NCBI GenBank assembly: GCA_964019055.1
Contig: OZ025221.1
Location: 5,286,968 to 5,350,967, forward strand
Reading direction: 5' to 3'
Origin: Anthopleura xanthogrammica
Lineage: Eukaryota; Cnidaria; Anthozoa; Actiniaria; Actiniidae
Length of the DNA stretch: 64,000 bases
The number at the start of each line of letters is the position of its first letter. The stretch's first letter is position 1. Made by a program: the position numbers and the translations under genes. This document shows positions 12,718-55,300 of the stretch, one piece after another. The notes beneath the pieces were generated by a model that made no database searches, was not told the DNA's origin, and saw nothing but the letters and a program-made list of their open reading frames with translations.

Positions 12718-13491
12718 TTAAAACTGTTCCACTTCCTCATTAACAGCCTCGTGAATATACTCCAGTAAATGTTCACTTTCCTCGTGAGCTGTGTTTTTAA
12801 CATATATATGTCTAACATCGGTAAATCCTATAAACCCAAATATAACCTTCAAGTACGGGACCTGAAAGTCAAGTTTTGCCATGTCTTCCTTAGTGTAGTC
12901 TCCACCCGATGACGTAACCAAGAGCAGAGGACGTCCAGTCACTAACCCCTTGGGGCCTGTGGTCGTCTCTTGAAATGTCAATCCTGGCTGAACGATACAG
13001 TCTATATATTGTTTAAGCACATATGGGATACTGAAGTTCCACATAGGGCTTGAGACAACTAGTTTATCTGCTGAGAATAGTGTTTTGATCATTTGTTCAA
13101 CTGAGGTCATGTTATCTCTGTCCCCTGGTATCTCTTTCCCTGTTACCATCCTCATCTTACTAGCAACGTGTGATAAATTGTACTGGAGTAGTTCCTTATC
13201 CCAAAGATTAACTTCTTGAATAACGTGACGGGGGTTTCTTTCTTTGTAAGACTTAAAAAACGCCTTTGAAGCAATTCCTGTCCAGGATTTTTCGTCGGAG
13301 CCAGAACAATTTAGGTGAAGAATTTGTACTCTTTTTTCGGTTTTCCTCAAATCATCACTCGATTTTACTTCTCCAGGAAATGCAGAAATATAGGAACAAC
13401 TCCTAAGGCTTCCTAAATGCTTGAATAGAGGAATATTTGACGTTGTTTTTAAGAAAAGCCGGGTGTTTCTTAGCGAAGACAGTCTTGCCAT
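12718..13491 (-). CDS. AzoR-type FMN-dependent NADH azoreductase/quinone reductase
   Basis: A single uninterrupted exon of 257 residues. From residue 53 (KRVQILHLNCS) it shows the flavodoxin-2 fold of bacterial AzoR: the FMN-loop motif PMWNFSIPYVLKQYID (starting at about 149) followed by GLTFQ and GPKGLVTG, then TSSGGDY (about 193). AzoR enzymes use NAD(P)H and FMN to reduce quinones and azo compounds. Residues 1-40 are basic, hydroxylated and lack acidic residues, like a mitochondrial presequence. The ATG at 13491 was chosen over the one at 13635 because it lies in CCAAGATGGCAAG and because the upstream extension is AT-rich and unlike the family. The absence of introns among intron-rich neighbours is consistent with lateral acquisition or retroposition. 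It shares a 356-base divergent promoter with NDUFAB1. Confidence 0.88.
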   Translation of the reverse strand: MARLSSLRNTRLFLKTTSNIPLFKHLGSLRSCSYISAFPGEVKSSDDLRKTEKRVQILHLNCSGSDEKSWTGIASKAFFKSYKERNPRHVIQEVNLWDKELLQYNLSHVASKMRMVTGKEIPGDRDNMTSVEQMIKTLFSADKLVVSSPMWNFSIPYVLKQYIDCIVQPGLTFQETTTGPKGLVTGRPLLLVTSSGGDYTKEDMAKLDFQVPYLKVIFGFIGFTDVRHIYVKNTAHEESEHLLEYIHEAVNEEVEQF

Positions 13492-13847: not shown

Positions 13848-15204
<1,357 letters not shown>

Positions 15205-17805: not shown

Positions 17806-20800
17806 CTACTTATTGCGCCTTCTCCATGCATTCAGTGGTCCATGTTCACGGATGTACTGTGCGTGTACCCCACATGGGAGGAGTTTTCCCTCTGCTCGCC
17901 ACTTCTCATAGACGTCTCGGTCAAACTTGGTGAAGCCCCACTTGCGAGAGACGAAAAGCTGCAAAAAAGGGATACAAATTTTGAGTGGATGTAAATTACA
18001 TGTTTATGATTATTCAGGGGTTACAAGGGAAGTTTCTTGCACTCAATGCAAGGATAATTTAGTTATGAACAAAGGATGGAAATTCTGTGATATGGATTTT
18101 TCACCAGTAGTAGCTAAATATTCCTTTTTTGAATTTGTAAAAACTGCTGTGTTCCTTGATTACAGACTCATTTATGCAGGGTAAGCCTCATTTCAGTGTC
18201 TAAATATTCACAAATACCAACAGTAAAGTAAAGAACACACACTTCAACAATAAAAACACTTCACAGGAACACATGAATATTCTGCCGGAAATCGAGGCTA
18301 ACCCTGTGTAAACGAATCTGTAGGAAAGGAACACAGCAATATTTTACAAATTTGAAAAAGGTCTATTGAAGGCCATAATCCTTTAGCCACTGTACATGTT
18401 CACTCTTGCAACTGCGAGAGAGTGAGCAAGTGAAAGGGAAGATTCATGAGACTACATTTCATACCTTTTGACGTCCTGGGAACTTAAACTTCGCTCTTCT
18501 GAGAGCCTCAATAGCATGAGCCTTGTTACCATCTTTGGTTCTGACAGAGATGATTGCCTGACCAATACGGACACGGGCTACAGTACCTTGTGGTTTACCA
18601 AAAGCACCACGCATACCAGTCTGGAGCCTGGGAATGAAAAGGATGGTCGTTAACTTTCATACTTACGGTATGCTTCTTATACAATACAATACAATAGATG
18701 TAATGGCGAAAGGGTGCATTCACTTTTGGGGTCTCAGATTTTATCCTGGAATTCAGCAGGCCATCAGAATCGTTTGATTTTTTAAGAAATAGTAGGAGGG
18801 AGGGAAAAAACTGCAGAAAACCCCTTGGAAGTACAAGATGAACAACCAACTTTAATCATATGGGACACAGTGGGTCTGAGAATCAAACTCATGACATAAG
18901 TACACACCACTTATGCCTTTCCCTACTGCTAAGTCTCAAATTACAGGTATCCTTTTGTTGTTTTCATTCTGTAACTTTGCAAACCCAAAGATGTCAGTGT
19001 GTGGCTTTTGTCAACAAATGCAATCAACAGAAGCCAATAGACCTAATTGGCTAACATGTTGCTAAGTACGTTTCCACCAAATTCAAAACCCTCTGGGATA
19101 AAAACTTGTCAAAAAAAATGTTCTATGTGATATCGAAATACAACAAAGAATCTTATTCCTAGATGTTTTGAATAGGGTGGAAATGTACATAGCAACATGT
19201 TAGACAATTAGACAATTAGACAGTGATATCTGCATTTGGCTGTGTCACATAAACATGAACATCACATTACAAAGGATACAAGCTACAATGTATAAAATTC
19301 TCCTAAGTACGGGTGATATTTTACCATAATCTACAATCTTGGACAAATCTAGTGAGAAAGTAACCTTTTTAGCATGGTATAGAAACATCAAACTAGGACT
19401 TCTTGAGCCCCCCCCCCCCCCAATTCAATGTTGCTACAGAAGGGTTGCCTAGAGACCAGCCATGAGCACAATTTTTGAGTACTGTAAGTATACACAATTG
19501 TGTTGTGGAGGAAGGGGGAGGGAGATATGAGAATTGGCTTTGAATGCTATGAAATGCTGCAAGGTAGTACAAGTGTCTCAACAATTTTGACTAAGATTGT
19601 AGAAACAACTTGCATCACATTGGTGAGATATAAATTATTCATTTCAATGTCCCTCACCTATCAGCTCCTGCACACGACAACATTTTATTGATGCGAACAA
19701 TATGGAAAGGGTGCAGACGAACACGGATGTGGAAAGAGTCCTTGCCGCAGCTCTTGACTAGGTATTTGTTGCAGCAAATACGAGCTGCTTCCAAAGCCTC
19801 ACTGGAAAGCTGTTCAAGTTCATCAGATACCATGTGAATACACAGAGGAAAATCATCTACCATAGCTTTCTTACGACCAAGGTCATAAATCCTGATCTTT
19901 GAATCTAAAATCAAGAAAGATAAAATTTAGGGAATAAAATTGCATTGTACAGCTTGTTTGAGCTTTATGTGGACCAACTCCCTTGGCATAAAATTTTTTT
20001 GTCTCTATATTGTTTTTATCTCACAAGACAGTTAATGTCGCTGTTATTGCCTGAATGGCATTTTTTAAGTGGATTATTTAGACCTGCGACAACAAAAAAG
20101 TTGTTCAAACTTACCTGGAACACCACGGCAGAAACGTGACTTGGGATATGGTTTGTTTTTACAGTAGCGATAGCTATAAAAAAATTAGACCATAAGTGAA
20201 TATATCAATCAGCATTCTGCAATCTAGTTATAAGACATCTTTTAGTCACAGGGCTTGAAATAACGGCCAGTCGTTGGACAATGTTGTGCCATAATTGAAA
20301 CTTGTCTGGTCAAATGTTTGCCTTGCCAATCATTTTGACCAGTAACATTGACCCAGAAACAAGGTAATACTGAGCTAAAACTAATTTGGCTGGTCATCAT
20401 GACCGGCGATTGCCCGACTGTTATTTCAAGTCTTGAGTCATAAATTTAAATATGATAAAAAAATACACTTATACTTGATAAATCAAGTCTGCATGAGATA
20501 GCATGATTATTTGGAAGCTATAGTTGATTTTGCACGACCATTTATTGTACAGATTTGATAACATCCTTTGAACTTATCACAGTGCTCAAGATCACTGCTT
20601 CTCCAATGAAATTTCTTGGACACAGCATTGTCATTATCATGACACAGCATTTTTGTATTGTGAGCTTTCACAGTCTTATCGACGTTGCTCTAAGATATCA
20701 GCCAAGTTGGCAATGCAAGCAATTAAAGCTAAGCCATGTCAGAATGACTCAACAGAAATGCTTGTTCATTTTTGTAGAAAATTGTTTAGTAATACAACTG

Positions 20801-21468: not shown

Positions 21469-22055
21469 TTTAACTTTCGCTTTCACAAACAACTAGTTCA
21501 GGTACGTAAGCAAGAATTCGATGTTTTTGAGCTGTAGATCGCACCACATATCTAAGTAATTTACAGAATAATGGTTATGAGTATCTGTAGATACTATTGA
21601 TACGAGAATTTGGCCAGGGGTTAAGTTTTTTTTTTGCATAAAATCTGCGCAAAAGTTTGACAATTTTGAAACACGGAAGTTAAAATGTTTTGATTGTGAA
21701 ATTAGAGACAAATATATAGTGAATATTTTCATGTATGAAAAACAAGTCATCAATTTTATGTATATTATATTGACTTTTTTACATTTTTAGCCCCATCCCT
21801 CCTTGCTGTTGTGAAGTATATTTTTGAGGTGTGTGTGTGTGTCTGCATTCAACACAAATGGCCAGCCATCCACCCCCCGTACCCACAACCAGTCACACAC
21901 ACACACCACTACCCCACCCCACCCCTGTAGACCTTCATGCTCAGCCAATTCAAAGGTTCTTGACTTCGGTTATACAGCCATTTTAGGAAGCTCGACATGT
22001 TCATATAACTAATTGTGAATATTTCCAAAGGTGTTGTAGAAATAATCCATCAAAA

Positions 22056-23189
22056 ATGATTGTGACTGAGGTTCCCACATTGGATGAAAATCTCAAGAAA
22101 TTAACTCCATGGTGGGATGTCATTGCCAGGTATCTTATTGCTGTAATGATGGCCATTGCCTTGACAAGCATTGCCGTACAAGTCACCAAAGACAACTTGA
22201 TTTGTGTCCCTGCAATCAACTGCAGTAACTCAAATATATCAGATGATGCTGCTAAGTTATGCCAGTCACTTAATATGACAAACAATTTGAAGAAAAAAGT
22301 CTTGACAAAATTGGTTGATAGAAGATCCTATGATTACGTTGATTCTGTTTGTTTCCAGGAACTGAGTTTTTTTACAAAGTTTTTTCCTCTAATTATTTTG
22401 GTAGAAGCAGTGATCCTTCTGGTTTTGGATATTCTGTGGACCAAGTTGCCATTCTCTTCCTCAGTATTAAATCATTTAGTGTCTTTGGCAGATGAAGGTC
22501 ACAGTTCCTTAGCAACTATGGACATCATATTAAGGAAAAAGGAAGAAGCAGCCCATGCAAGTAGTACACATGTCTTGCAAGGTAGAAGTGATAGTGTGCC
22601 ATTATTAACGAGAAATCAAGCAACACAAACTGATCATGACACCATCCTCAAGGCTGATTTTCTCAAAGTCCTAAACTTGGCTAAGAAAGCTGAAAATTTT
22701 AGAAAGAAGTACACAAAAAAGGGCTGCTGTAAATCTTTGTGTTGTTTTTACCTAATGCGAACATTCCTTCAGTTTGCCTCATGCGCTATTTCTTTTGGAG
22801 TCAATCTGAAAGATCACGAAAACTTTTTTAGTTTTAGTAATACAGTTCATTTCAAATGTGTCATTGATGAGATTGTCTTCACCAAGGAGTACGAGCATTT
22901 TGAATGTTCCCACCCATCGGCACCTTACTTCCAGATTGCCTTAATACTATTCTTAATTTCTTTAGGTTTTCATTTTCTAATATCAGGTTATGCATTTTTT
23001 AAAATACTGTGTTGTGGAAGGTCTTACAAGTTCCCTAAGAATTCAGAGAGTGAGAATGGTAATGATTTTGCTTTCCTTCTTAATCTTTTAACAAAACATG
23101 ATAAGCTGTATGCTGACAAGGTTTCTGAAATATTTGAAACTGAGACCTATAAAAACCTGAAAACACATTTACAAAACACTTCCAGGTGA
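22056..23189 (+). CDS. LRRC8-like channel subunit lacking leucine-rich repeats, copy 1
   Basis: LRRC8 proteins form hexameric volume-regulated anion channels in the plasma membrane. This 377-residue intronless ORF matches the LRRC8 pore module: a short N-terminus with LTPWWDV (cf. KPWWDV), TM1 about 24-44, then VTKDNLICVP (cf. VTQDKMICLP). The first outer loop has Cys50, 56, 69 and 99, with YDYVDSVCF; TM2 is about 109-129, followed by a cytoplasmic loop, TM3 about 236-250, a second outer loop with Cys268 and Cys284, and TM4 about 292-315. It then has NDFAFLLNLLTKHDKLYADK, which matches the LRRC8 segment just before the LRRs, and ends there. No LRR coding sequence follows. A conserved GGTTATACAG acceptor upstream suggests a 5'UTR intron whose donor is near 21503. 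An AATAAA lies near 23662. The cysteines and the post-TM4 segment favour LRRC8 over pannexin. Confidence 0.85.
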   Translation: MIVTEVPTLDENLKKLTPWWDVIARYLIAVMMAIALTSIAVQVTKDNLICVPAINCSNSNISDDAAKLCQSLNMTNNLKKKVLTKLVDRRSYDYVDSVCFQELSFFTKFFPLIILVEAVILLVLDILWTKLPFSSSVLNHLVSLADEGHSSLATMDIILRKKEEAAHASSTHVLQGRSDSVPLLTRNQATQTDHDTILKADFLKVLNLAKKAENFRKKYTKKGCCKSLCCFYLMRTFLQFASCAISFGVNLKDHENFFSFSNTVHFKCVIDEIVFTKEYEHFECSHPSAPYFQIALILFLISLGFHFLISGYAFFKILCCGRSYKFPKNSESENGNDFAFLLNLLTKHDKLYADKVSEIFETETYKNLKTHLQNTSR

Positions 23190-23195
23190 TTTCGC

Positions 23196-23549
23196 CCCGG
23201 GGGGGGAGGGACTCCCTTATAAAAGGGGGCGGGGGTCCTCATCGGAAATTTTGAAAATGACCCCTAAAAGGGACCTGTATTTTGAGGTGATGGGCGTGGC
23301 AGTGATGAAATTTCACCCCTAAGAGGGACCAATCAATAAGTGACACAATCCGAAAATGGGATTAAAATAAAAATCAATCTTTGAAAAGAAGCATTGTTGC
23401 TGATCTTACACCCTAAGCGGGACCACATAACTCAGCTAGTGGGCATTCTCGTCATCATCACCCTAAGCGGGACCAAAACACTGATTTCAAACCCTAAAAG
23501 GGACGACGAGGACCCCCGCCCCCTTTTATAAGGGAGTCCCCCCCCCGGG
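23196..23549. mobile_element. hAT-like MITE inserted at the stop codon of copy 1
   Basis: Ends CCCGGGGGGGGAGGGACTCC and its inverse GGAGTCCCCCCCCCGGG flank 354 bases. The 8-base sequence GATTTCGC is duplicated on both sides (23188-23195 and 23550-23557); sister unit 2 has a single GATTTCGC after its stop, the intact empty site. Eight-base target duplications are typical of hAT elements. Inside are several CCCTAAAAGGGACC-type words. Confidence 0.9.
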
Positions 23550-24112
23550 GATTTCGCTTCTCTCAGGTTGAAGGAATTAGCCAATCAGAGAGCATTTTGT
23601 TTGTAGCTCAATGTTTCCTAGTTCTAGGTTTTTGGCTCGATTTATGACAGCTTTTGCTTGAAAATAAAGAAAGTAAAACTAGTCCGTGCTAATATTCACC
23701 AAATACCTTTTAGAAAAAGGATATTTTGTCGTTGCATGGTGGAAAATATTTCATTTTGACAAGAGATAATAAAAAAAACTTGGAAATTTTCATTATCATG
23801 AATCCTGGCTGCAATTTTCACATTTTCAAAATTACATGCTCTCCAAATCTATATTCAAAACTACTTATGTTTGTCATCCAATAATATTGCCATCAGTGCC
23901 TGATCAGTTTCACTGGGCCTCAATACAGTAAAGTCTTTAGTAAAGCAATAAATAAATAGCTAGTTGAGAACTGGAAATAGTTTTGTTTACATTGGTGAAA
24001 CTAATTCTGAAATGAAAAGAGAGAAAGACCAATTAGAAATCAAGAAAAAATCTATGATAAATGGTAATCAGAATTTCTTAGATTTACATTTAGATTTCTT
24101 AGAATAGCTGTT

Positions 24113-24242
24113 ATTACGGATGCATGAAAATGAGATGCAAATGAGATATTCTTTTGTTTTAAGAATCATACAAGAGAGGCTATCGGGTCAATACAATGCT
24201 TGTTGTCTAATTTGCATGCTGCCATCTGTAATAACAGCTATT
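24113..24242. mobile_element. MITE, AATAGCTGTTAT family
   Basis: Same inverted ends as 11808-11943. It is shared with unit 2 at 28964-29088, so it was present before the duplication. Confidence 0.75.
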
Positions 24243-24567
24243 AGGAAGTGTAACAATGTCAGATTGCATAGTTTTTTTACTGGAACTACTAGCTAGCTTC
24301 AGCCAAAATAGGCATTTGATTATTAACAGATATTATTAGAACCAGCAATCCTAATTTGCTTATGTTTTATGTAAAGTGGAGTCTGAAACTTGCATGTTTG
24401 GTGGCTAAAGGGTCAACGTTTAGTGGTCTCGTTTGACCACAGGCGAACCACTCTAATAAATGTAGTAAAACATTAATATGTATTTAATTCTGTCTTTTTT
24501 CTGCACGCGCTATTGTTTCTGACATCATCCCTACTCCCCTTAGTAGCAATTTTTTTCACAACTACAT

Positions 24568-24950
24568 ACACCCTATGCATAAAGAGTAAAGACTGGGAAC
24601 GAGCACCATGAATCATCAATGATTTCAAAAATATATTTTGATTACAAGAAAGAGCATGTCTAAATTAGTAATTTGGTAGAGTTCTGTTGTTATATATTAA
24701 ATCACTGCAGAGTCATAAGCATTTGAAATGTGCCAAAAACATGAAAACGAGGCTGGTCAGGCCTTGGTTGTTGTTTCCATACAAATCTTTCTAATTTCAA
24801 ACAGCTGTAGATTTTTATCATTTAATGTTAGTAAGCTGAAATTTTTGGAGATTACTAAAATCGATATACTCTTTACAATGAAAGCAATGGTTTTTTCAAT
24901 AACTGATGAACTAAGGTATTTCCATAGCCACGCCCCTATGCATAGGGTGT
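24568..24950. mobile_element. MITE present only in unit 1
   Basis: Ends ACACCCTATGCAT and ATGCATAGGGTGT are inverted and flank about 380 bases. Unit 2 reads straight through ACTACATAATATAC at the matching place (about 29412). Confidence 0.8.
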
Positions 24951-25992
24951 ATATAATATACTAACAAGGTAGGCAACTCACTGGGCTTCCTGTGGAAAAT
25001 TCAAGATTTGACGAAGGAAAACCACAAATTTCACACGATAGTTTGGCTCCGAAAGAAAAAGGACCTTACAGAAAGTTGTACTCACATGTAATCTCTAATT
25101 ATTTATAGTTTTTTTGGAGAAGAAATGCCCTAAAAGTATTTTTTTAGGCATTTTCCTACCTGAACTGATGTGCCGACAGTTGGGCTTGTCCTTGCGCGGG
25201 GCTTGAGCATGAGAAATTGATCAAAACACGTACTATCCCTCCCCTCCCCAAGACATTTTTGGTTCATGCAGAAATGCGTCCCATTCCCACATGCATTTTA
25301 CTTCCGGTCTCTTTTCAACCAATAACGAGTGTCGTCTGTTTTGACTTGACAAGTACATACCTTGTTGCCAACAAAGTTGGCTAACATAGAGGAGTTTCAG
25401 GAGTTTTGAGTTTGTTATGGAAGTGCGTCATTTCTTTTGTTCTAAACAGGTTTGACTGGTTAACCCTCCATATAAGGAAGTGTACATAGTTTTGTTGTAA
25501 GTTGTGAGTAATTATGTGGCATGACGTCGGGGCGAAGAAATGGCTGCTGCACAATGAATCCAATAGGTTTTTCGTTCAACTTCTAAAAATTATCTAAATC
25601 TTCTAAAAATTATCTAATTTTAAATCTCATCACTTCGTTGGCATAGTTAGGTTTTCTTAAGAACAAACGCTAGGTGTCAATTCCATTACTGATAAGTATG
25701 ACTAGTTAGTATATTATATGTAGTTGTGAAAAAAATTGCTACTAAGGGGGATAGGGATGATGTCAAAAACAACAGCGCGCAGAAAAAAAGACAAAGAATC
25801 AAATACATATTCCTCTTTTCCTTCATTTATTAGAGTGGTTCGCCTGTGGTTTGACGGACTGCTTTGAATTCTACAAACGTTAACTTTTTAGCCACCAAAT
25901 AAAAAAGTTTCAGTCTCCAATAACAACATGTTATGATTTCTGAAGTTCAGAGGTGTTCACGATTAGATGCAAACGACTGTATCTGGTCAACT

Positions 25993-26452
25993 CACAGGCA
26001 GCCCAAGCTTGTTCTGTAATATTTTGTAGCATCTAAAATTGGTACTTCTATGAATAAAAATAACTTACCTTGATAGCTTGTTAAATGTTTTGATGTCTGG
26101 TCGATTTTGAAGCCATTTTGGAGCGTTTTTACGGAGACAACGTCATTTTGGTTTCCCCTTCTAAACAAAATCCCAAGGCTGCACTCTCACGGCGACACCA
26201 ACCTCTAGGAGCCTGTGTCGAAGCTCAATAAATCAAATCCACAGGCAGCCCAAGCAATCCTTTTGTAAAGTCCGTGGTATGGTTTTTCATAGGAAAAATC
26301 GTAAAAGAAAATAAAAAATACAAAAACTCAATAAATATTTAGTGAAATACAATTCAATGACTATTTCTATACTCGTAGTAAGTCTCTAATTGATCCTTCG
26401 CATGATTTTTCATACATCGGACTTTACAAAAGGATTGCTTGGGCTGCCTGTG
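25993..26452. mobile_element. CACAGGCAGCCCAAGC inverted-repeat element
   Basis: Begins CACAGGCAGCCCAAGC and ends GCTTGGGCTGCCTGTG; a second left end lies inside at 26240, so a 213-base inner element with 30+ base arms is also possible. It directly precedes unit 2, and an equivalent precedes unit 3. Confidence 0.75.
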
Positions 26453-27088
26453 GGTGGGCGCGTCGGACAGTAAGGTTTGACTTTCACAAACAAACTCAGG
26501 TAAGCAAGAATTCGATGTTTTTGAGCTGTACATCGCACTATATATCCAAGTAATTTACAGAAAAATGGTTATAAGTATCTGTAGATACTATTGATACGAG
26601 AATTTGGCCAGGAGTTAAGTTTTTTTTGCATAAAATCTGCGCAAAAGTTTGACAATTTTGAAACACGGAAGTTGAAATGCTTTGATTGTGAAATTCGAGA
26701 CTTGCCAAATTCGAACACTCTTATTTTTTCCAAGAGAACAAGTATAGTGAATCTTTTCATGTATGAAAAACAAGTATATCAATTTTATGTATATTAATAT
26801 TTATTTTTTTAACATTTTTGGCCCCATCCCTTCTTGCTATTGTGAAGCATATTTTTGAGGTGTGTGTGTGTGTGTCTGCATTCAACACAAATGGCCAGCC
26901 ATCCACCCCCTATACCAACAACCACACACACACACCACTACCCCCCCCCCCCCACCCCTGTAGACTTTCATGCATAGGCAATTCAAAGGTTCTTGACTTC
27001 AGTTATACAGCCATTTTAGGAAGCTCGACGTGTTCATAACTTAACATGTGAACATTTCCAAAGGTGTTCTAGAAATAATCCATCAAAA

Positions 27089-28225
27089 ATGATTGTGACT
27101 GAGGTTCCCACATTGGATGAAAATCTCAAGAAATTAACTCCATGGTGGGATGTCATTGCCAGGTATCTTATTGCTGTAATGATGGCCATGGCCTTGACAA
27201 GCATTGCCGTACAAGTCACCAAAGACAACTTGATTTGTGTCCCTGCAATCAACTGCAGTAACTCAAATATATCAGATGATGCTGCTAAGTTATGCCAGTC
27301 ACTTATGCCAAAAAGTTTGAAGAAAAAAGTCTTGGCAAAAATGGTTGATAGAAGATTCTACGATTACGTTGATTCTGTTTGTTTCCAGGAATTGAGTTGG
27401 TTTACAAAGTTTTTTCCTCTAATTATTTTGGTAGAAGCAGTGATCCTTCTGGTTTGGGATATTCTGTGGACCAAGTTGCCATGCTCTTCCTCAGTATTAA
27501 ATCATTTTGTGTCTTTGGCAGATGAAGGATACAGTTCCTTAGCAACTATGGACATCATATTAGGGAAAAAGGAAGAAGCAGACCATGCAAGTCCTGCACA
27601 TGACCTGCAAGGTAGAAGTGATATCGATAGTGTGCCATTATTAACGAGGAATCAAGCAACAGTAACTGATCATGACACCATCCTCAAGGCTGATTTTCTC
27701 AAAGTCCTAAACTTGGCTAAGAAAGCTGAACATTTTAGAAACGAGTATACAAAAGAGGGCTGCTGTAAATCTTTGTATTGTTTTTACCTAACGCGAACAT
27801 CCCTTCAGTTGGCTACATGTGTCATTTCTTTTGTAGTCAATTTTATTGATTACAAAAACTTTTTTAGTTTTAGTAATACAGTTCATTTCAAATGTGTTAT
27901 TGATGAGATTGTCTTCACCAAGGAGTATGAGCATTTTGAATGTTCCCACCCATCGGCACCCTACTTCCAGATTGCCTTAATACTATTCTTAATTTCTTTA
28001 GGTTTCCATTTTCTAATATCAATTATTGCATTAGTTGAAATAGGACGTTGTGGAAGGTCTTACGAGTTCCCTAAGAATTCAGAGAGTGAGAATGGTAATG
28101 ATTTTGCTTTCCTTTTCTATCTTTTAACAAAACATGATAAGCTGTATGCTGACAAGGTTTCTGAAATATTTGAAACTGGGACCTATAAAAACCTGAAAAC
28201 ACACTTACACAACACTTCCAGGTGA
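27089..28225 (+). CDS. LRRC8-like channel subunit lacking leucine-rich repeats, copy 2
   Basis: 378 residues, closest to copy 1 and sharing most of its length. The topology is the same: four membrane segments, outer-loop Cys50, 56 and 69 with VDSVCF, and paired cysteines in the second outer loop. Differences cluster in the cytoplasmic loop (KKEEADHASPAHDL) and around TM3 (LATCVISFVVNFIDYKNFF). The NMT glycosylation sequon of copies 1 and 3 is replaced by MPKS. It ends HLHNTSR, again just before where LRRs would start. The 5' leader donor reads CTCAG|GTAAGC. The 3' sequence after the stop (TGATTTCGCTTCTC) is uninterrupted, unlike copy 1. Same family assignment and uncertainty as copy 1. Confidence 0.85.
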   Translation: MIVTEVPTLDENLKKLTPWWDVIARYLIAVMMAMALTSIAVQVTKDNLICVPAINCSNSNISDDAAKLCQSLMPKSLKKKVLAKMVDRRFYDYVDSVCFQELSWFTKFFPLIILVEAVILLVWDILWTKLPCSSSVLNHFVSLADEGYSSLATMDIILGKKEEADHASPAHDLQGRSDIDSVPLLTRNQATVTDHDTILKADFLKVLNLAKKAEHFRNEYTKEGCCKSLYCFYLTRTSLQLATCVISFVVNFIDYKNFFSFSNTVHFKCVIDEIVFTKEYEHFECSHPSAPYFQIALILFLISLGFHFLISIIALVEIGRCGRSYEFPKNSESENGNDFAFLFYLLTKHDKLYADKVSEIFETGTYKNLKTHLHNTSR

Positions 28226-28466
28226 TTTCGCTTCTCTCAGGTTGAAGGAATTAGCCAATCAGAGAGCATTTTGTTTGTAGCTCAATGTTTCCTAGTTCTA
28301 GGTTTTTGGCTCGATTTACGACAGCTTTTGCTTGAAAATAAAGAAAGTAAAACTCATCCGTGCTAATATTCACCAAATACCTTTTAGAAAAAGGATATTT
28401 TGTCGTTGCATGGTGGAAAATATTTCATTTTGACAAGAGATAATAGAAAACACTTGGAAATTTTCG

Positions 28467-28645
28467 CTGTGACAAACAATGCATTGCGCCCCTAGATTCC
28501 AGATCACCTGGTTGTAACTTCTAAATTGTGTGTGCAAAGCTAACAACTGTTTTTACACTGAAGAAGGTCTGAGACCAGACAGAAACGTCTGTATAATTTT
28601 TTTACAATTTAAGCCAGTGTCTACTAGCTAGTTTATTAAAATTAT
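28467..28645. mobile_element. Insertion present only in unit 2
   Basis: About 180 bases (GCTGTGACAAACAATGC to CTAGTTTATTAAA) interrupt a stretch that is continuous in unit 1 near 23790. No clear inverted ends were seen, so the class is unknown. Confidence 0.6.
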
Positions 28646-28963
28646 CATGAATCCTGGCTGCAATTTTCGCATTTTCAAAATTAGATGCTCTCCAAATCTA
28701 TATTCAAAACTACTTATGTTTGTCATCCAATAATATTGCCATCAGTGCCTGATCAGTTTCACTGGGCCTCAATACAGTAAAGTCTTTAGTAAAGCAATAA
28801 ATAAATAGCTAGTTGAGAATGGGAAAAAGTTTTGATTACATTGGCGAAACTAATTCTGAAATGAAAAGAGAGAAAGACCAATATTAGAAATCAAGAAAAA
28901 ATCTATGATAAATGGTAATCAGATTTACAAAGAAAACAATTGTGTCAAGTGAAGTTATATGTG

Positions 28964-29088
28964 AATAGCTGTTATTACCAATGCAAATGAGATATTCTTT
29001 TGTTTTAAGAATCATACAAGAGAGGCTATCGGGTCGATACAATGCTTGTTGTCTAATTTGCATGCTGCCATCTGTAATAACAGCTATT
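28964..29088. mobile_element. MITE, AATAGCTGTTAT family
   Basis: Counterpart of the unit 1 copy at 24113-24242, slightly shortened at its left end. Confidence 0.7.
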
Positions 29089-30123
29089 AGGAAGTGTAAC
29101 AATTTCAGATTGCATAGTTTTTTTATTGTGAACTACTAGCTAGCTTCAGCCAAAATAGGCATTTGATTATTAACAGATATTATTAGAACCAGCAATCTTA
29201 ATTTGCTTATGTTTTATGTAAAGTGGAGTCCGAAACTTGCATGTTTGGTGGCTAAAGGGTCAACGTTTAGCGGTCTCGTTTGACCACAGGCGAAGAACCA
29301 CTCTAATAAATGAAGAAAAACATTAATATGTATTTAATTCTGTCTTTTTTCTGCATGCGCTGTTGTTTCTGACATCATCCCTACTCCCCTTAGTAGCAAT
29401 TTTTTTCACAACTACATAATATACTAACAAGGTAGGCAACTCACTGGGCTTCCTGTGGAAAAATTCAAGATTTGACGAAGGAAAACCACAAATTTCACAC
29501 AGTTTGGCTCCGAAAGAAAAAGGACCTTACAGAAAGTTGTACTCACATGTAATCTCTAATTATTTATAGTTTTTTTGGAGAAGAAATGCCCTAAAAATAT
29601 TTTTTTAGGCGTTTTCCTACCTGAACTGATGTGCCGACAGTTGGGCTTGTCCTTGCGCAGAGCCTGAGCACGAGAAATTGATCAAAACACGTACTATCCC
29701 TCCCCTCCCCAAGACATTTTTGGTTCATGCAGAAATGCGTCCCATTCCCACATGCATTTTACTTCCGGTCTCTTTTCAACCAATAACAAGTGTCGTCTGT
29801 TTTGATTTGACAAGTACATACCTTGTTGCCAACAAAGTTGGCTAACATAGAGGAGTTTCAGGAGTTTTGAGTTTGTTATGGAAGTGTGTCATTTCTTTTG
29901 TTCTAAACAGGTTTGACTGGTTAACCCTCCATATAAGGAAGTGTACCTAGTTTTGTTGTGAGTTGTGAGTAATTATGTGGCGTGACTTCGGGGCGACGAA
30001 TTGGCTGCTGCACACTGAATCCAATAGGTTTTTTCGTTCAACTTCTAAAAATTATCTAAATCTTCTAAAAAAGTATCTAATTTTAAATCTCATCACTTCT
30101 TTTGCATAGTTAGATTTTCTGAA

Positions 30124-30446
30124 GGGAGCATTCATTTTTTAGGAGGGGGGGGGGGGCCAGAGGAATTAGGGGGGGGTCATTAAAAAATTACTAGATAAAA
30201 GGGGGGGGTCACATTTTTTTTACGTTGAACCAGGGGGGGTCATGAATAAAAATACAGTGTTTTTTTTTTTTTTAGTCGTTTTCTGGGGGGGAGGCTAGAA
30301 AATTTTTATATTTGGAAGTGGGGGGGGGGGGGGTTATCGAAATATTAAATTCCTTACCATGGGGGGCTGCATTTTTTTTCTATTTGATTCCTCTAATTCC
30401 TCCAGCCCCCCCCCCCCCCCCCCCCTCCTAAAAAATGAATGCTCCC
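30124..30446. mobile_element. G/C-tract MITE present only in unit 2
   Basis: Ends GGGAGCATTCATTTTTTAGG and the inverse CCTAAAAAATGAATGCTCCC flank long G and C runs. Unit 1 reads TTTTCTTAAGAAC at the empty site. The flanks fit a short TAA-like duplication, as in PIF/Harbinger elements, but one side is altered. Confidence 0.85.
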
Positions 30447-30787
30447 TAAGAACAAACGCTAGGTGTCAATTCCATTACTGATAAGTATGACTAGTTAGTA
30501 TATTATATGTACAGTAGTTGTGAAAAAAATTGCTACTAAGGGGGGTAGGGATGATGTCAAAAACAACAGCGCTCAGGAAAAAAGACAAAGAATCAAATAC
30601 ATATTCCTCTTTTCCTTCATTTATTAGAGTGGTTCGCCTGTGGTTTGACGGACTCCTTTGAATTCTACAAACGTTAACTTTTTAGCCACCAAACATAAAA
30701 GTTTCAGGCTCCAATAAGAACATGTTATGATGTCTGGTGTTCAGAGGTGTTCACGATTTAGATGCAAACGACTGTATCTGGTCAACT

Positions 30788-31262
30788 CACAGGCAGCCCA
30801 AGCTTGTTCTGTAATATTTTGTAGCATCTAAAATTGGTACTTTTATGAATAAAAATAACTTACCTTGATAGCTTGTTAAATGTTTTGATGTCTGGTCGAT
30901 TTTGAAGCCATTTTGGAGCGTTTTTACGGAGACAACGTCATTTTGATTTCCCCTTCTAAACAAAATCCAAGCAAAATCCCAAGGCAGCTGCACTCTCACG
31001 GCGACACCAACCTCTAGGAGCCTGTGTAGGAGCTCAATAAATCAAATCCACAGGCAGCCCAAGCAATCCTTTTGTAACGGTCCGTGGTATGGTTTTTCAT
31101 AGGAAAAATCGTAAAAGAAAATAAAAAATACAAAAACTCAATAAATATTTAGTGAAATACAATTCAATGACTATTTCTATACTCATAGTAAGTCTCTAAT
31201 TGATCCTTCGCATGATTTTTCATACATCGGACTTTACAAAAGGATTGCTTGGGCTGCCTGTG
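30788..31262. mobile_element. CACAGGCAGCCCAAGC inverted-repeat element
   Basis: Second copy of the element at 25993-26452, at the equivalent junction just before unit 3. Confidence 0.75.
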
Positions 31263-31892
31263 GGTGGGCGCATCGGACAGTAAGGTTTCACTTTCACAAA
31301 CAAATTTAGGTAAGCAAGAATTCGATGTTTTTGAGCTGTACATCGCACTATATATCTAAGTAATTTACAGAAAAATGGTTATGAGTATCTGTAGATACTA
31401 TTGATACGAGAATTTGGCCAGGAGTTAAGTTTTTTTTGCATAAAATCTGCGCAAAAGTTTGACAATTTTGAAACACGGAAGTTGAAATGCTTTGATTGTG
31501 AAATTCGAGACTTGCCAAATTCGAATACTCTTATTTTTTACCAAGAGAACAAGTATAGTGAATCTTTTCATGTATGAAAAACAAGTATATCAATTTTATG
31601 TATATTAATTTTTTTTTTTTAAACATTTTTGGCCCCATCCCTCCTTGATATTGTGAAGTATATTTTTGAGGTGTGTGTGTGTGTGTCTGCATTCAACACA
31701 AATGGCCAGCCATCCACCCCCTGTACCCACAACCACACACACACACCACTACCCCCACCCCTGTAGACTTTCATGCATAGGCAATTCAAAGGTTCTTGAC
31801 TTCAGTTATACAGCCATTTTAGGAAGCTCGACATGTTCATATAACTAACATGTGAATATTTCCAAAGGTGTTCTAGAAATAATCCATCAAAA

Positions 31893-33092
31893 ATGATTGT
31901 GACTGAGGTTCCCACATTGGATGAAAATCTCAAGAAATTAACTCCATGGTGGGATGTCATTGCCAGGTATCTTATTGCTGCAATGATGGCCATTGCATTG
32001 ACAAGCATTGCCGTACAAGTCACCAAAGACAACTTGATTTGTGTCCCTGAAATCAACTGCAGTAACTCAAATATATCAGATGATGCTGCTAAGTTATGCC
32101 AGTCACTTAATATGACAAACAATTTGAAGAAAAAAGTCTTGACAAAATTGGTTGATAGAAGATCCTATGATTACGTTGAATCTGTTTGTTTCCAGGAACT
32201 GAGTGGTTTTACAAAGTTTTTTCCTCTAATTATTTTGGTAGAAGCAGTGATCCTTCTGGTTTTGGATATTCTGTGGACCAAGTTGCCATTCTCTTCCTCA
32301 GTATTAAATCATTTTGTGTCTTTGGCAGATGAAGGTTACAGTTCCTTAGCAACTATTGACATCATATTAAGACATGGAATTCCGAAGCCGGTTAAAAAAA
32401 GGGAAGGAGACCCTGCAAGTTCTGCAAATGAGCGCATTGCATTTTTATCACAGAGGCATGAATCGCTGAGAAAGTCTATCACCATCCCTGAGGCTGATGT
32501 TCTCAAAGTCCTAAACTTGACTGAGAAAGCTAACAATTTTAGAGATAAGTACACACAGGTTTCATGTGAAGAGAGATTATGTTGCTTTTCCTGTAAAATA
32601 TCTTTGCATGGTTCTTACATAACCCGAATATTCTTTCAGTCATTTATGTGCATTATTTTTTTAATATCCAATCTTATTGATTTCAAAAACTTTTTTAGTT
32701 TTAGTAATACAGTTCATTTCAAATGTGTTATTGATGAGATTGTCTTCACCAAGGAGTATGAGCATTTTGAATGTTCCCACCCATCGGCACCTTACTTCCA
32801 GATTGCCTTAATACTATTCTTAATTTCTTTAGGTTTTCATTTCATAATATCAGGTTATGCATTTGTTGAAATCCTGCGTCATGGAACGTCTTACACTTTC
32901 CCTATTTTGGAGGTCAAAACTAAAGATAATGAGGGGAGTAAAACATCTACGTCTAATGATTTTGCTTTCCTTTTTTATCTTTTAACAAAACATGATAAGC
33001 TGTATGCTGACAAGGTTTCTTATTTCTTTAGACCTGAGACCTATGACGACCTTCCAGGAAATATATCAAACTATATGTCTGAGAACAAATGA
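31893..33092 (+). CDS. LRRC8-like channel subunit lacking leucine-rich repeats, copy 3
   Basis: 399 residues, the most diverged copy. Residues 1 to about 158 and the second outer loop/TM4 block (FSFSNTVHFKCVIDEIVFTK onward) are almost identical to copies 1 and 2, also in DNA. The cytoplasmic loop (RHGIPKPVKKREGDPASS) and TM3 with its approach (SYITRIFFQSFMCIIF) are wholly different, and the C-terminus gains VKTKDNEGSKTSTS before the common NDFAF block. It ends PGNISNYMSENK with no LRRs. A cysteine-rich stretch (CCFSCKIS) precedes TM3. It probably co-assembles with its sisters, but that is inference. Confidence 0.85.
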   Translation: MIVTEVPTLDENLKKLTPWWDVIARYLIAAMMAIALTSIAVQVTKDNLICVPEINCSNSNISDDAAKLCQSLNMTNNLKKKVLTKLVDRRSYDYVESVCFQELSGFTKFFPLIILVEAVILLVLDILWTKLPFSSSVLNHFVSLADEGYSSLATIDIILRHGIPKPVKKREGDPASSANERIAFLSQRHESLRKSITIPEADVLKVLNLTEKANNFRDKYTQVSCEERLCCFSCKISLHGSYITRIFFQSFMCIIFLISNLIDFKNFFSFSNTVHFKCVIDEIVFTKEYEHFECSHPSAPYFQIALILFLISLGFHFIISGYAFVEILRHGTSYTFPILEVKTKDNEGSKTSTSNDFAFLFYLLTKHDKLYADKVSYFFRPETYDDLPGNISNYMSENK

Positions 33093-33266
33093 TTATTCAC
33101 TTTACAATTTTACTTACTACTGACATAACTGGCAATGCATATCAATCAAGTTTAGTGCAACAAAAAAGTTATAAGATTAGATGCTCTCCAAATGTTTATT
33201 AACAAAACTACTTTCATTTTCAATTAATGTTTGCCATCCAATAATATTGCCATCAGTGCCTGATCA

Positions 33267-33660
33267 CCCGGGGGGGGGGGACTCCCTATCGAAAGAGGGT
33301 GGGGATGCTTGCCGAAAATCTTAAAAATGGACCCTAAAAGGGACCTGTGTTGTCAGTTTATGGGCGTGGCAGGGATAAAATTCTACCCCTAAGAGGGACC
33401 AAGGAAAAACGTATCCAAGGCTGGGTTTCTCGATTTAATTTATTAACATCAAACGCCTTCTGCTCGTATATAAAATAAACATCCTTGAAAAGAAGCATTG
33501 TTGTTGCTGTTTATTTTAAAACCCCTAAAAGGGACCACAAAACTCAGCTGGTGGGCATTCTCGTTCATAACACCCTAAGCGGGACCGAAACCTCGATTTC
33601 AACCCCTAAAAGGGACTGCGAGCATCCCCGTCCCTTCGACCTCCGAGTCCCCCCCCCAGG
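33267..33660. mobile_element. hAT-like MITE in unit 3
   Basis: Same family as 23196-23549: CCCGGGG start, C-tract end and internal CCCTAAAAGGGACC words. CCTGATCA is duplicated on both sides (33259-33266, 33661-33668); units 1 and 2 have a single CCTGATCA there. Confidence 0.9.
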
Positions 33661-34383
33661 CCTGATCAGTTTCACTGGGCCTCAATACAGTAAAGTCTTT
33701 AGTAAAGCAATAAATAAATAGCTAGTTGAGAACTGGAAATAGTTTTGTTTGCATTGGCCAAACTAATTCTGAAATGAAAAGAGAGAAAAAAGACCAATTT
33801 ATTAGAAATCAAGAGTATGAGTACTGTATTCTTAGAGTACAAAGAAAACAAGTGCATCATGTGAAGTTATATTGGAATTATGAAGTACTTAACAATGTCA
33901 GATTGTATAGTTCATTTAATGCATAGTTAAGCTTCAGCCAAAATAGGCATTTGACTATTTGTAGATATTATTAGAGCCAGCAATATAATTTGCTCATGTT
34001 TTAAGACTCTGATTGATTGTTCTTGCTGGAGTGCCACGTTCACCTAACTGGCATGGACTGAATGTCAGTTTCCTTGTCTATTTTGAAGACTGAAATAGAA
34101 ATATGCATGCATGCTGCGCTAGTTAGATTAAGCACACTTCCACTGGCACAACATGAGAGAAGTGCTATAAGAGATTAAAGATGACGTGTAATGTAGAGTG
34201 TTCTGTGAATCCCTAAGTGCCTGCACTATAGCACAGCAAGCAAGTTTTTAAATGTCTTTTATGAGATACAAGAATAGCCATTATTTTAGATACAAATGAT
34301 GAAATAGAATTTAAATAGTGTGCTCTTGTGCTGTAAGTTTTTTTTTTAAAGCACACTCCCCCATTTAGCAATTAGAGAGTGAG

Positions 34384-39227: not shown

Positions 39228-42200
39228 ATGTCGTACCGCGATTTACGAAGTAAGAGGACGAATATTCAACGTTTCTTCCCACAAATAAGGCTTTGAAGCG
39301 TTCATGAATAATCAAGCTACGTTTATGATACAATTTTGATCCGGTTTGGTGGAGTTTTGGTAAATTTTTGACGCGTTTTTTTTGGTGTTTTGTCCTCAGA
39401 TTTCACTGAAATGATGCGTTCTCTTGGATACCCAAGACTTATTTCGATGGAGAATTTTCGTTCTCCTAACTTTCCTCTAGTGGCAGAAGTTTTAATATGG
39501 CTCGTAAAGAGGTACCGTGACTAGAATATTAGCGTTGTTACTCCTTGGTGGTAGTGTAGTTAACGTACACAGTTAGGTTTCTGACGTATAACATTTAATT
39601 TATTTATTCAGATACGATCCAAATGCAGAGCTACCGATGGATGTGGATACTGAGCAAGATAGAGTGCTGTTTATTAAGGCTGTTGCGCAGTTTATGGTAA
39701 TCATTGTCATCATGTTAATATGATTATCTTCATCATAACCATCTTGAATCGTTATCATCATCAACATCATCAGTATGAACATCATCATCACCACCATCAT
39801 CATTGTAATCACCATCAACACCACCATCATCACTACCATTGATCATCATCTTCATTATTATCATCATCACCATCATCAGTATGAAGTTCATCATAACCAC
39901 CATCATCACATCATCATCATCATCTTCACTACCATCATCATCATCATCATCACTACCATCATCATCATCATCATCACTACCATTGATCATCATCACCATC
40001 ATCAGTATGAAGTTCATGATCACCACCATCATCACATCATCATCATCATCTTCACCACTACCATCATCATCATCATCATCATCACTACCATTGATCATCA
40101 TCTTCATCATTCTTTATCATCATCACCATCAATATGAAGAACATCACCACCATCATCACATCATCATCATCATCATCTTCACCACCATCATCTTCATAAT
40201 CATGATCCAAATATAAAATATTATTAACGATAGCTCAATTGTATTCCAGGCAACTAAAGCACACATTAAGCTGAACACCAAGAAGCTTTATGGAGCAGAT
40301 GGGTATGCCGTAAAGGAACTACTCAAGGTGACAACAGTACTTTACAACGCAATGAAAACCAATCAAGCTGAAGAGGACACAGAGTCTCCCAATGTTACTT
40401 CCTTGACGTTTGATATATCATCAAGGGTAAGCCAGATAAACATAGTCCATATTGTGACTACCGGTTCACAATGCATGGTGGGATTGATAAATGGTGTTTC
40501 GAGCATGACAACCTTTGTTATCTTGGACACGTTGCCATGTCAACTGAGGTATCAATCCCAGAATGCATCACTGTGATTCAATATGGCAGACTAACGATAT
40601 AGACTATATTCAATGATATAAGCATGCATAGGATTAGGAAGTATAGGATGCTATATCCTCAAAACAGTAGTATAATAGCAAACAAGGAACATTGCAGTAT
40701 CTAGTAGTATTTAGTGGAAAAGAAATGTTGTACTGTTTCAAGGATTAAGTGATAGTTGACTGCATTAGTTTAAAGATATGACTACCGGTATATTCATTTA
40801 TGCAAGAGATCGTATGGGCTAGTAAACCTCATATTCTATAACAAGATTTTTTATTGCTACTGACTAGAGAAACTCACGGTAATGAATATGTCATGGTAAT
40901 AATGGATTTCTCTAAATTCAACACAGATTAATGACTTAAAGGCATCACGCCAGCTTGCTTCAGAGATCACCTCAAGAGGAGCTGCACTCTATGATTTACT
41001 TGGACAAGAAGTTGAGCTAAGGGTATGTTCTAAATGGTATCATGATATCATGTTTGTGTACGGTCCTCTATGCAATATCCATAGGTAGCATTATGGTCAA
41101 ACTAAGAAATTAATGTTAATTTACATGATTGTAACAACAGTTTTCCCGCCACTGTGAAAAAAAGTTCATTCTATGGTTTTCAGTTGAGTTTGGAGTGACA
41201 GAGGTTTTGTCATAAAGTTTTAACATCTAGCTCCCGATGTTTCTAAGGGCAACTACAACAATGAAGTTGGATGAAGTGGTTTCACTACTTAAAGATTTCA
41301 GCTCAAACAAATTCATCTAACCAGCAGCAATCATTCCCACATTTTGTCGTGACGGTTGCCCTTAGAAACATTGGGAGCTGGACATTCAGACTTTATGACA
41401 AAACTTCTGTCAACTCAACTGAGAACAGTGTAGTAAATAGAATAGAAATCCCTAATTTCTTGAAAATAAAATTGAAATATGAAGTTTGAAACTATTTAAC
41501 GGCAAACAACTTTGGCGTGATTGCACTGTGGTTAAATAGTAAATATTCCTGGCATATTTTAAGTGTTTACGGTTTTCTTAGTTTGATTGTAGGTAACTAC
41601 TGCTATAATCCAGGGAAAACTGTTAATGAGGTGTTATATTTGCAATTCTTTAGGAACTAAGAACACGAGCAATAGCCAAACCACTTGAAGTGAATGAACT
41701 GGAGAATGGTATTAAAAAAAGCATGCTACAAGTGCAGGTTTGTCCATATATTCATACCAGTAAGAATGGGATCATTTTTTTCATTCTTTCCCATATTCTA
41801 TCTTTTCATTTCCATTTTTTTAAATATTTTTTTTAGAAAGAAATTCAAAATGTTTGAGAAATTCTATAGTGTTCTAATTTGAGCTAATAATACCAAATTT
41901 TTGGCAATATAGGAAGAAATCAAGAAAACTACTCAAATGTTGAACAACATTGCATCTGACGAAGCAAATTTAGAAACAAAGATTGAAAAGAAGAAACAAG
42001 AGTTAGAGAGGAACCAGAAAAGATTACGAAGCTTAGAAAGCGTCAGGTGGGTCAATAGTAGTTTTCCTTTTCCTTTTTGTTTTCTTTGGTAAAACCATGG
42101 TAAATGTGAGCTTTAAAGCATTACATAATAAAAATTTTACGTCACTCAAAATTCACAGGCCAGCATTTATGGATGAGTATGAAAAACTGGAAGAAGACCT

Positions 42201-52300: not shown

Positions 52301-55300
52301 AACAATTCCATTATTAACACCATCACCATCACCACTATTACTACTACCATTATTACTAACAACAAACATCATCTCTGTCCATCTTCATCATAACCACCAC
52401 CACCATCATCATTATCACCACTACTACCATCACCCTTGCTATCAATTGTGCCACCACCATCATCATTATCACCACTACTACCAACACCCTTGCTATCAAT
52501 TGTACCACCACCATCATCATTATCACCACTACTACCATCACCCTTGCTATCAATTGTACCACCACCACCATCATCATCACCACTACTACCATCACCCTTG
52601 CTATCAATTGTACCACCACCACCATCATTATCACCACTACTTCCATCACCCTTGCTATCAATTGTACCACGGCCACCATTATTACTAACCACAAACATCA
52701 TCTCCATCCATCTTCATCATAACCACCACCACAATCATCACCACTAACAAAAGCACTGTCAACTGCTCTCACCTGTCTCAGCTGCTTATTTATAATCAAG
52801 GAATCAGGAGAAACATCCTCGGCACCACATGTTGGACACTCTTGCTCATTTTCAAGTAGATAGGTACGAATGCCTGGATTAATGAAAGCAAACAGGGTAC
52901 TTAATATTATTATCCTGCACTGATTTAGAAAAACTCATGTTGCATTTTGTGCATCAATCAAAAACAGTATTAGAGTATGTCAACTAGGTAACTATGGAAA
53001 CCATGAGGTGGTACATGGGAATGATTTATTTGATTGACAGTTTCTATTGCCAATAAACCTGTGTTAACTTTTGTCTCAGTCAGTGGGTAGCATTGAAAAC
53101 ATTGGTAACCACCATCACTCTAACATAAATTTAGCTTACATTCATCACAATAGCTTGTGCCACAACAGGGAATAAGAACAGCATCAGTCAGCAAGTTTTT
53201 ACACATTGGGCACTGCAGCTCTGACGGCACCTTGCGCTCCTTTTTAATAGGATCTATTTCTGGTACTGGGACCAATTTCTTGGTTGGATCTGAAGAATCT
53301 TTCTTGGAGTCTTTGTTTGAATCCCTTTAAAATAATCAGAAATGAAATAATGAAAAATAGAAAATGCATGTGCATTCTGTGTGCAGTTATAGCATACAGG
53401 GATTTGTCCAAAGAAAAGTGTTAGAAGAAGCACAATGTGTAGTTTTCTGTCAACCCCAGTGCTTTATAACTTCACACAGCACAACAAGCAAGTTTCTTTT
53501 ATAAATTATAGCAGCTGTTATTTTGGACACTAATGATGAATAAGAAAGTGTGCATGCATGCTGTGTACTCTAATAATGCACACTCTCCCAAACAATCAGA
53601 CCACAAGATTTATTATTATTTATACAAGTTATTTTATCAATGAAAAAATGGGAAGCATGGTTGGTGTAGTGCCGCCTTTCACAAGTATAAAACCCTTGAC
53701 AGTTGTAATCCTTGTAGAACTTACTCTGTTGTACCACTATCTTGATCATCATTAAAAGTTCTTGGGATTCCGATAGTGCGTTTCACCTGGTGAAAATGAA
53801 CAAATTAAGAAAATCAGACACATAAATCCAGTATTAACTAAAAACCTTGAATTTGTAACACTCTTCAGACTTTAATAAAAAGCATATTATGTAGCCACAC
53901 AGACACCATGCCAGTTAAGATCATGATGGCAGTGATGTTAGTGGTTGATGGAGATAATTAAATAAATGTTGATGATGATGGATGGTAAAAATGATGATGA
54001 TGATGATAATGATGGCAATAGTGGAAGTAGTGATGAAGACATTGATATTGATTGTGGTGATGATGATGTTGGTGAGGATGATGTTGGTGAGGATGATGGT
54101 GGTGATGATAATGATGGCAATAGTGGAAGTAGTGATGAAGACATTGATATTGATTGTGGTGATGATGATGTTGGTGAGGATGATGTTGGTGAGGATGATG
54201 GTGGTGATGATAATGATGGCAATAGTGGAAGTAGTGATGAAGACATTGATATTGATGATGTTGGTGAGGATGATGATGCTGATGATAATGATGGCAATAG
54301 TGGAAGTAGTGATGAAGACATTGATATTGATTGTGGTGATGATGATGTTGGTGAGGATGATGTTGGTGAGGATGATGGTGGTGATGATAATGATGGCAAT
54401 AGTGGAAGTAGTGATGAAGACATTGATATTGATGATGTTGGTGAGGATGATGATGCTGATGATAATGATGGCAATAGTGGAAGTAGTGATGAAGACATTG
54501 ATATTGATTGTGGTGATGATGATGTTGGTGAGGATGATGTTGGTGAGGATGATGGTGGTGATGATAATGATGGCAATAGTGGAAGTAGTGATGAAGACAT
54601 TGATATTGATGATGTTGGTGAGGATAATGGTGGTGATGATAATGATGGCAATAGTGGAAGTAGTGATGAAGACATTGATATTGATGATGTTGGTGAGGAT
54701 AATGGTGGTGATGATAATGATGGCAATAGTGGAAGTAGTGATGAAGACATTGATATTGATGGTGGTGATGATGATGTTGGTGATGATGATGTTGGTGAGG
54801 ATGATGGTGGTGATGATAATGATGGCAATAGTGGAAGTAGTGATGAAGACATTGATATTGATTGTGGTGATGATGATGTTGGTGAGGATGATGTTGGTGA
54901 GGATGATGGTGGTGATGATAATGATGGCAATAGTAGTGATGAAGACATTGATATTGATATTGATGATGGTGGTGGTGATGATGATGATTCATGATGATGG
55001 TGGAAAAAAATGGCTGTGATAATAATACTGATGGTGGACGTAATAATGATATGATAATTCCTGTTGATGTTGAACGATAATCATGGTGAAGATGGTGACA
55101 ATGTCCTTGATGTTAATGATATTAATTATATTGGTGGTGATGAATGCTGATGATGTAGGTGATAATGATATCATTTAGCCAATATCAACTTTCATGCTTA
55201 CCCCATTAGTAGGACAGTTTCTGATAAAGTGTCCTGGTTTTCCACATCGATAGCAAACATAGTTAGGAGGCAGAGGTCCTGATGGATTGTATCCCCTGCC

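Follow-up and report, generated by a model that had tools for sequence, protein, structure and literature searches.

The subunits of LRRC8 channels carry a C-terminal domain of about 15–17 leucine-rich repeats (LRRs). Here we consider a 64,000-nucleotide stretch of the genome of Anthopleura xanthogrammica (contig OZ025221.1, positions 5,286,968 to 5,350,967 of the forward strand; hereafter the window, with positions counted from its first nucleotide), which contains three tandem genes resembling the pore-forming part of these subunits. Judging from their sequences, the genes probably encode LRRC8-type pore subunits without LRRs, which would form LRR-independent anion channels.

The tandem array and its pore domains

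The three open reading frames (ORFs), ORF1 (22056..23189, 377 residues), ORF2 (27089..28225, 378 residues) and ORF3 (31893..33092, 399 residues), are located on the plus strand, and all are intact and intronless, starting with ATG and ending with TGA, so that the initial annotation, which listed three tandem intronless ORFs of 377–399 residues, is borne out. The tandem unit of approximately 4.8–5.0 kb includes, along with the ORF, a leader and a large part of the flank; in addition to the ORFs, the span 21470–34005 hence covers the 5′ leader, which is repeated, and the 3′ flanks. ORF1 and ORF2 are 88% identical, and ORF3 is diverged in the first intracellular loop and the tail.

All three ORFs match PF12534, the Pfam Pannexin_like family that covers the LRRC8 pore region (ORF1, E 1.5e-32, 113.5 bits; ORF2, E 1.1e-33, 117.2 bits; ORF3, E 3.7e-32, 112.2 bits), and in ORF3 residues 10–323 align to positions 14–345 of the 346 in the profile. 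As these scores of 112–117 bits compare with a cut-off of 25 bits, the match is not a chance one, and the LRRC8-type identity initially proposed from short motifs is confirmed. Most of these motifs (LTPWWDV, VTKDNLICVP, NDFAF and LYADK) are indeed present in the three ORFs, except that VDSVCF occurs in two only, ORF3 having VESVCF instead. ORF1 alone matched LRRC8A (E 1.4e-24, residues 15–368). When a profile of the three ORFs and a protein of Actinia tenebrosa (P0001) was compared with the PDB, all 26 distinct sequences retrieved up to E = 10 were LRRC8A, C or D, with E of about 1e-38 to 1e-27, some of them being fusions or chimeras.

P0001 (432 residues; database name LRRC8B-like) has PF12534 as its only family, and no LRR family was found in it by Pfam. 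It is 52% identical to ORF1 over 99% of the latter, with the same LRR-free layout and the same end region, and differs from the ORFs by a longer first intracellular loop and by being known from a database protein entry. Thus, the LRR-free layout is not a local truncation. P0001 was the one match among 3745 candidates in a protein search (E up to 0.001). Two other searches yielded no match among 7993 scored candidates (E up to 0.001) and again only P0001 among 202 (E up to 10); both spanned the sizes of full-length LRRC8 proteins yet missed the vertebrate ones, and hence these negatives carry little weight. Within the window, tblastn with the three ORFs and the Actinia protein detected the pore domain in these ORFs only, all other matches having E of at least 0.43. 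No match was obtained in the window with Rfam (gathering cut-off) or in the search for tRNA genes, and NCBIfam gave below-cut-off matches only.

Six loop cysteines are invariant in all four sequences, that is, the three ORFs and P0001 (in ORF1, C50, C56, C69, C99, C268 and C284), and C50, C99, C268 and C284 align with C54, C113, C295 and C310 of LRRC8A. The loop cysteines of LRRC8A are presumably paired. An arginine likewise aligns with the filter residue R103 of LRRC8A in each of the four sequences (R89 in ORF1 and ORF3, R88 in ORF2). Among vertebrate subunits, arginine at this position is found in LRRC8A and LRRC8B only, not in LRRC8C, D or E (PMC10480491), and in this respect the ORFs resemble LRRC8A/B.

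The first outer loop contains NxS/T motifs (N55 and N60 in all three ORFs; N63 and N69 in P0001). Since N-glycosylation keeps chordate innexin homologues from making gap junctions (PMC8769644), the channels considered here would more likely remain unpaired in the membrane, without docking into gap junctions. Hydrophobic regions exceeding the threshold number three in ORF1 and ORF2 and four in ORF3 and P0001, and a low-confidence model with the mean predicted local distance difference test (pLDDT) score of 41 contains four long helices, at residues 9–46, 105–130, 222–252 and 289–320.

Absence of leucine-rich repeats and position of the C-termini

In ORF1–ORF3, Pfam listed no LRR family up to E = 1. 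At the same cut-off, no LRR family was listed in the plus-strand read-through of the regions 12.06–22.06, 23.19–31.89 and 33.09–63.09 kb, scanned with no LRR-protein control. Hence the earlier claim that the proteins stop before any repeats holds both for the ORFs and for the plus strand past the next gene, CLUAP1. The scan took all three plus-strand frames, reading through stops; on the minus strand it covered 12.06–22.06 kb. It recovered ORF2 itself and stretches of CLUAP1 down to 34 residues, and thus is able to see split genes. An LRR exon hidden downstream was considered and is ruled out for the scanned plus-strand regions, in which no LRR family was listed. A regular expression for the single-repeat motif, applied to six frames with no shuffle control, gave 15 matches and no array; two of the matches are 123 bases apart at 46.7–46.9 kb, the others being scattered.

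The last approximately 40 residues of the ORFs (NDFAF...LYADK) match the cytosolic segment of LRRC8A that leads into the LRRs. Positions 15–376 of the four-sequence profile align to LRRC8A, position 376 meeting residue 403, and by gapless counting the C-termini fall at about residue 411 of LRRC8A for ORF1 and ORF2 and about 414 for ORF3; the single-sequence alignment of ORF1 puts its C-terminus at 410, one residue earlier. In LRRC8A, the pore domain comprises M1–W411 and the LRR domain, T412–E808 (PMC10480491). Thus, the natural proteins stop at the boundary between the pore and the LRRs. In the low-confidence model, residue 377 is placed on LRRC8A residue 410 or 411 in eight of the best 50 rows of the fold comparison, a structural register that agrees weakly with an end at 410/411.

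A similar end is found in a human disease mutation, LRRC8C p.Leu400IlefsTer8, whose product retains the native sequence to residue 399, followed by seven new residues, and is active (PMC11729881). Its product is also a pore lacking LRRs, and its end is no more than about 10 residues away from those of the ORFs; the difference is that it arises from a mutation in an LRR-bearing gene and is not a natural gene. PDB chain 9ezc, a 414-residue LRRC8C matched at residues 19–401 by positions 14–375 of the profile, seems from its length to be this variant.

Divergence of the copies and their surroundings

All gaps between the coding sequences are multiples of three (2/2, 7/7 and 8/8 in the three pairs, 17/17 overall, although the pairs are not independent), vs. 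5 of 38 gaps in five, partly overlapping, flank comparisons. In 4000 neutral runs, simulated as random substitution in the observed number, no stop arose in the frame in 0.5% and 0.2% of cases for the two comparisons involving ORF3, and in 8% for ORF1–ORF2. These patterns indicate that the reading frames of the three copies are constrained.

The identity between the copies, calculated in 100-column windows, is mosaic. The first approximately 470 coding columns are 93–100% alike in all pairs; columns 477–776 of ORF3 are just 65–70% like ORF1 and ORF2; and around columns 877–976 all pairs are again 96–97% alike. Such a pattern suggests that the pore-forming parts have undergone gene conversion, and that three parts, namely the first intracellular loop, the region of the third transmembrane segment (TM3) and the tail, have diverged. 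The first intracellular loop is important in VRAC, the volume-regulated anion channel formed by LRRC8 subunits: it has been reported that 25 residues of this loop from LRRC8A give an LRRC8C chimera native-like channel behaviour (PMC10049205). As divergence is greatest in these three parts, the copies likely would be subunits with different gating.

Each ORF is preceded by a plus-strand leader, as delimited by the three-leader alignment. The leader of copy 1 (21480..22055) has donor-like GTACGT/GTAAGC at 21502/21506 and acceptor-like TTTTAG/GAAG ending at 21986; donor-like sites are CAG/GTAAGC at 26500 in copy 2 (leader at 26481..27088) and TAG/GTAAGC at 31310 in copy 3 (31286..31892). The leaders may thus consist of an untranslated exon and an intron. 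A donor-like CAG/GTGATT also overlaps the stop codons of ORF1 (23183–23191) and ORF2 (28219–28227) and is not found in ORF3.

Candidate polyadenylation signals AATAAA, presumed from their sequence and position, are located on the plus strand 473 bases downstream of the stop codon in copy 1 (23663..23668) and 111 bases downstream of that in copy 2 (28337..28342). The distances differ because a 354-bp mobile element (23196..23549, plus strand), together with its 8-bp repeat, was inserted in copy 1; this element starts 6 bases past the stop, has inverted ends and the flanking repeat GATTTCGC, and is missing from copy 2. A second short mobile element, at 33267–33660 in the 3′ flank of ORF3, has the 8-bp flanking repeat CCTGATCA. 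The two elements are 71.5% related and have G/C-rich ends (inverted in the first one).

To the left of the array are ribosomal-protein-L16-like exons on the minus strand (18462..19902; PF00252 in two frames, E 1.2e-10 and 3.6e-11), probably of the mitochondrial type. On the right, the array is bounded by CLUAP1 on the same strand, the first detected stretches of which lie at 39417..40447 (PF10234 in three frames, E 1.6e-26, 5.5e-28 and 4.3e-20). Farther away, an intronless minus-strand ORF of 257 residues (12718–13491) with a Flavodoxin_2 domain (E 9.9e-39) appears to be an NAD(P)H quinone reductase-like gene. A plus-strand match to the phosphopantetheine-attachment family at 14664–14750, weak at E 8e-4 and 20.0 bits vs. 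the cut-off of 20.8, might represent an exon of a gene for a mitochondrial acyl carrier protein. The region 53938–55019 is repetitive and open in four frames on both strands, and therefore its ORFs are no evidence of genes.

Channel function and origin of the array

The ORFs share with vertebrate LRRC8A–E (the volume-regulated anion channel, VRAC, or SWELL1) the PF12534 domain, six loop cysteines, four of them aligned, and the NDFAF...LY segment. They differ from LRRC8A–E in having no LRR domain, in lacking basic residues at positions 1–13, in length (377–399 vs. about 800 residues), and in forming tandem mosaic copies. We consider the array a real feature, a variant of a known channel family without one defining domain, predicted to function as an LRRC8 pore does; as this domain is absent, we do not class the proteins as full LRRC8 members.

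The subunits are predicted to assemble in the plasma membrane as hexamers or heptamers enclosing a large anion-conducting pore, whose selectivity the arginine ring at the R103 place would help to establish. LRR domains are held to regulate the physical gate in LRRC8A/C channels (PMC9851909), and the missing LRR domain is predicted to free the pore from this regulation. The opening would then be basal or depend on something other than LRRs, possibly voltage, lipids, ionic strength or the N-terminus. The human LRRC8C p.Leu400IlefsTer8 protein forms heptamers, and in combination with LRRC8A it is conductive under isotonic conditions, with no need for swelling (PMC11729881).

A number of points weigh against this interpretation. 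In the same work, LRRC8C cut at residue 419 assembles, its currents being barely above those of the wild type, and the protein cut at 379 is undetectable (PMC11729881); thus, LRR loss by itself does not make an active channel. Removal of 15 LRRs strongly reduces the current of LRRC8A, which speaks against a simple brake model, and C-terminally truncated LRRC8A is retained in the cell (PMC9399500). Channels with neutralised R103 are still anion-selective, the second filter being formed by the N-terminal E6 and R8 (PMC10480491), and there is no arginine or lysine in the first 13 residues of any of the four sequences. As the profile alignments start at residue 15, the N-terminus is outside them and the E6/R8 positions are unaligned. 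Anion selectivity is therefore predicted and not secured.

The remaining points of this kind concern the sequences and the models. Of the six loop cysteines, just four are in columns aligned with those of LRRC8A, and C56 and C69 of ORF1 are in the loop that contains C57 and C65 of LRRC8A, in other columns; the loop cysteines named in the initial annotation are thus fully conserved among the four sequences and only partly in register with LRRC8A. TM3 of ORF1 and ORF2 is below the hydropathy threshold used. Two models built from four-sequence alignments (mean pLDDT 41 and 38) are too poor for judging subunit contacts, and the top Foldseek row for the first of them is pannexin 1, tied with LRRC8; this comparison (163 of 167 ranked chains aligned, the best 50 considered) was not used to decide membership. 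The ratio of nonsynonymous to synonymous substitution rates (dN/dS) is 0.77 for ORF1–ORF2, 1.02 for ORF1–ORF3 and 0.81 for ORF2–ORF3, and alone does not demonstrate purifying selection. The ORF ends (approximately 411–414) are intermediate between the cut that yields an active protein (399) and the one that does not (419), and therefore constitutive opening is plausible, not assured.

There are two possible variants of the origin of LRR-free channels. An anthozoan LRRC8 gene with LRRs could have lost its 3′ half, with subsequent duplication of the shortened gene; the encoded channels would likewise have no LRRs, as a derived condition, so that this variant is compatible with the proposed function. 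We consider its chance to be not far below even. The NDFAF...LYADK end matches the LRRC8A segment that leads into the LRRs, and both LRRC8-like genes, whether with or without LRRs (PMC9399500), and, in one study, Lrrc8a (PMC10491807) are listed for Nematostella. Against such a loss, the plus-strand Pfam scan detected no LRR remnant downstream of any copy, and P0001 of Actinia terminates at almost the same position, so that any loss should predate the split of the two lineages. Alternatively, the array could be a retained VRAC pore from before the fusion, LRR-free channels being older than the joining of LRRs; anthozoans would then still run an ancestral LRR-independent channel, multiplied with varied cytosolic loops. 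This we regard as possible and clearly less probable than the loss, part of the expectation being assigned to neither. LRRC8 has been proposed to result from joining of a pannexin-like channel to LRRs (Abascal and Zardoya 2012, via PMC9399500 and PMC3928549), and for the Nematostella LRRC8-like genes the same authors suggested horizontal transfer (via PMC9399500). Their study is also cited in PMC6391747 and PMC9949713, and the human LRRC8 domains are given in PMC9573974. Among the literature matches listed, LRR-free cnidarian LRRC8 genes are not named; they might have been noticed earlier (Abascal and Zardoya 2012).

The LRR-free subunits could also be regulatory partners with no channel activity on their own, joining full-length LRRC8 proteins and diluting or unlocking their LRR-dependent gate. 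Co-assembly of LRRC8C cut at Leu400 with LRRC8A, which raises the basal current (PMC11729881), would agree with such a role, whereas the lack of any other pore-domain copy in the window by tblastn and the R103-type arginine, typical of LRRC8A and B and not of C, D and E (PMC10480491), would not; hence we consider it a tentative option, about as doubtful as the retention of an ancestral pore.

It is improbable that one or more of the three copies are decaying duplicates and not working genes. The pairwise dN/dS of 0.77–1.02 and the mobile element 6 bases past the stop of copy 1 would fit decay; the three open frames, the gaps in threes (17/17 in the coding sequence vs. 5/38 in the flanks) and the stop-free survival of 0.2–8% per pair under neutrality argue against it.

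Two further variants have hardly any chance of being correct. The first is that the ORFs encode junction channels of the innexin or pannexin type and not LRRC8 relatives. Pannexins and innexins, proposed to be related to LRRC8 (Abascal and Zardoya 2012, via PMC9399500 and PMC3928549), likewise have four helices and a large pore without LRRs; however, all three ORFs match PF12534 with no innexin family (PF00876) listed up to E = 1, and LRRC8A, C and D are the only solved structures matched up to E = 10. Pannexins and innexins thus have no sequence match to the ORFs in Pfam or the PDB at these cut-offs, and membership is rejected by sequence; chains of other large-pore families came up solely when the low-confidence model was compared with known folds. 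A distant or trans-spliced LRR exon completing the protein, to which the donor-like site overlapping the stop in two of the three copies might point, is equally hard to reconcile with the absence of this site from ORF3, the plus strand having no LRR family up to 63 kb with CLUAP1 intervening, and the AATAAA located 111 bases downstream of the ORF2 stop.

The proposed LRR-free channels touch on two open questions, the LRR gating of VRAC and the ancestry of LRRC8. Natural LRR-free subunits ending at the boundary between the pore and the LRRs would provide a ready-made test of the pore without its regulator. They would also be relevant to the human disease caused by LRRC8C truncation, where channels are kept open by a subunit that ends close to this boundary.

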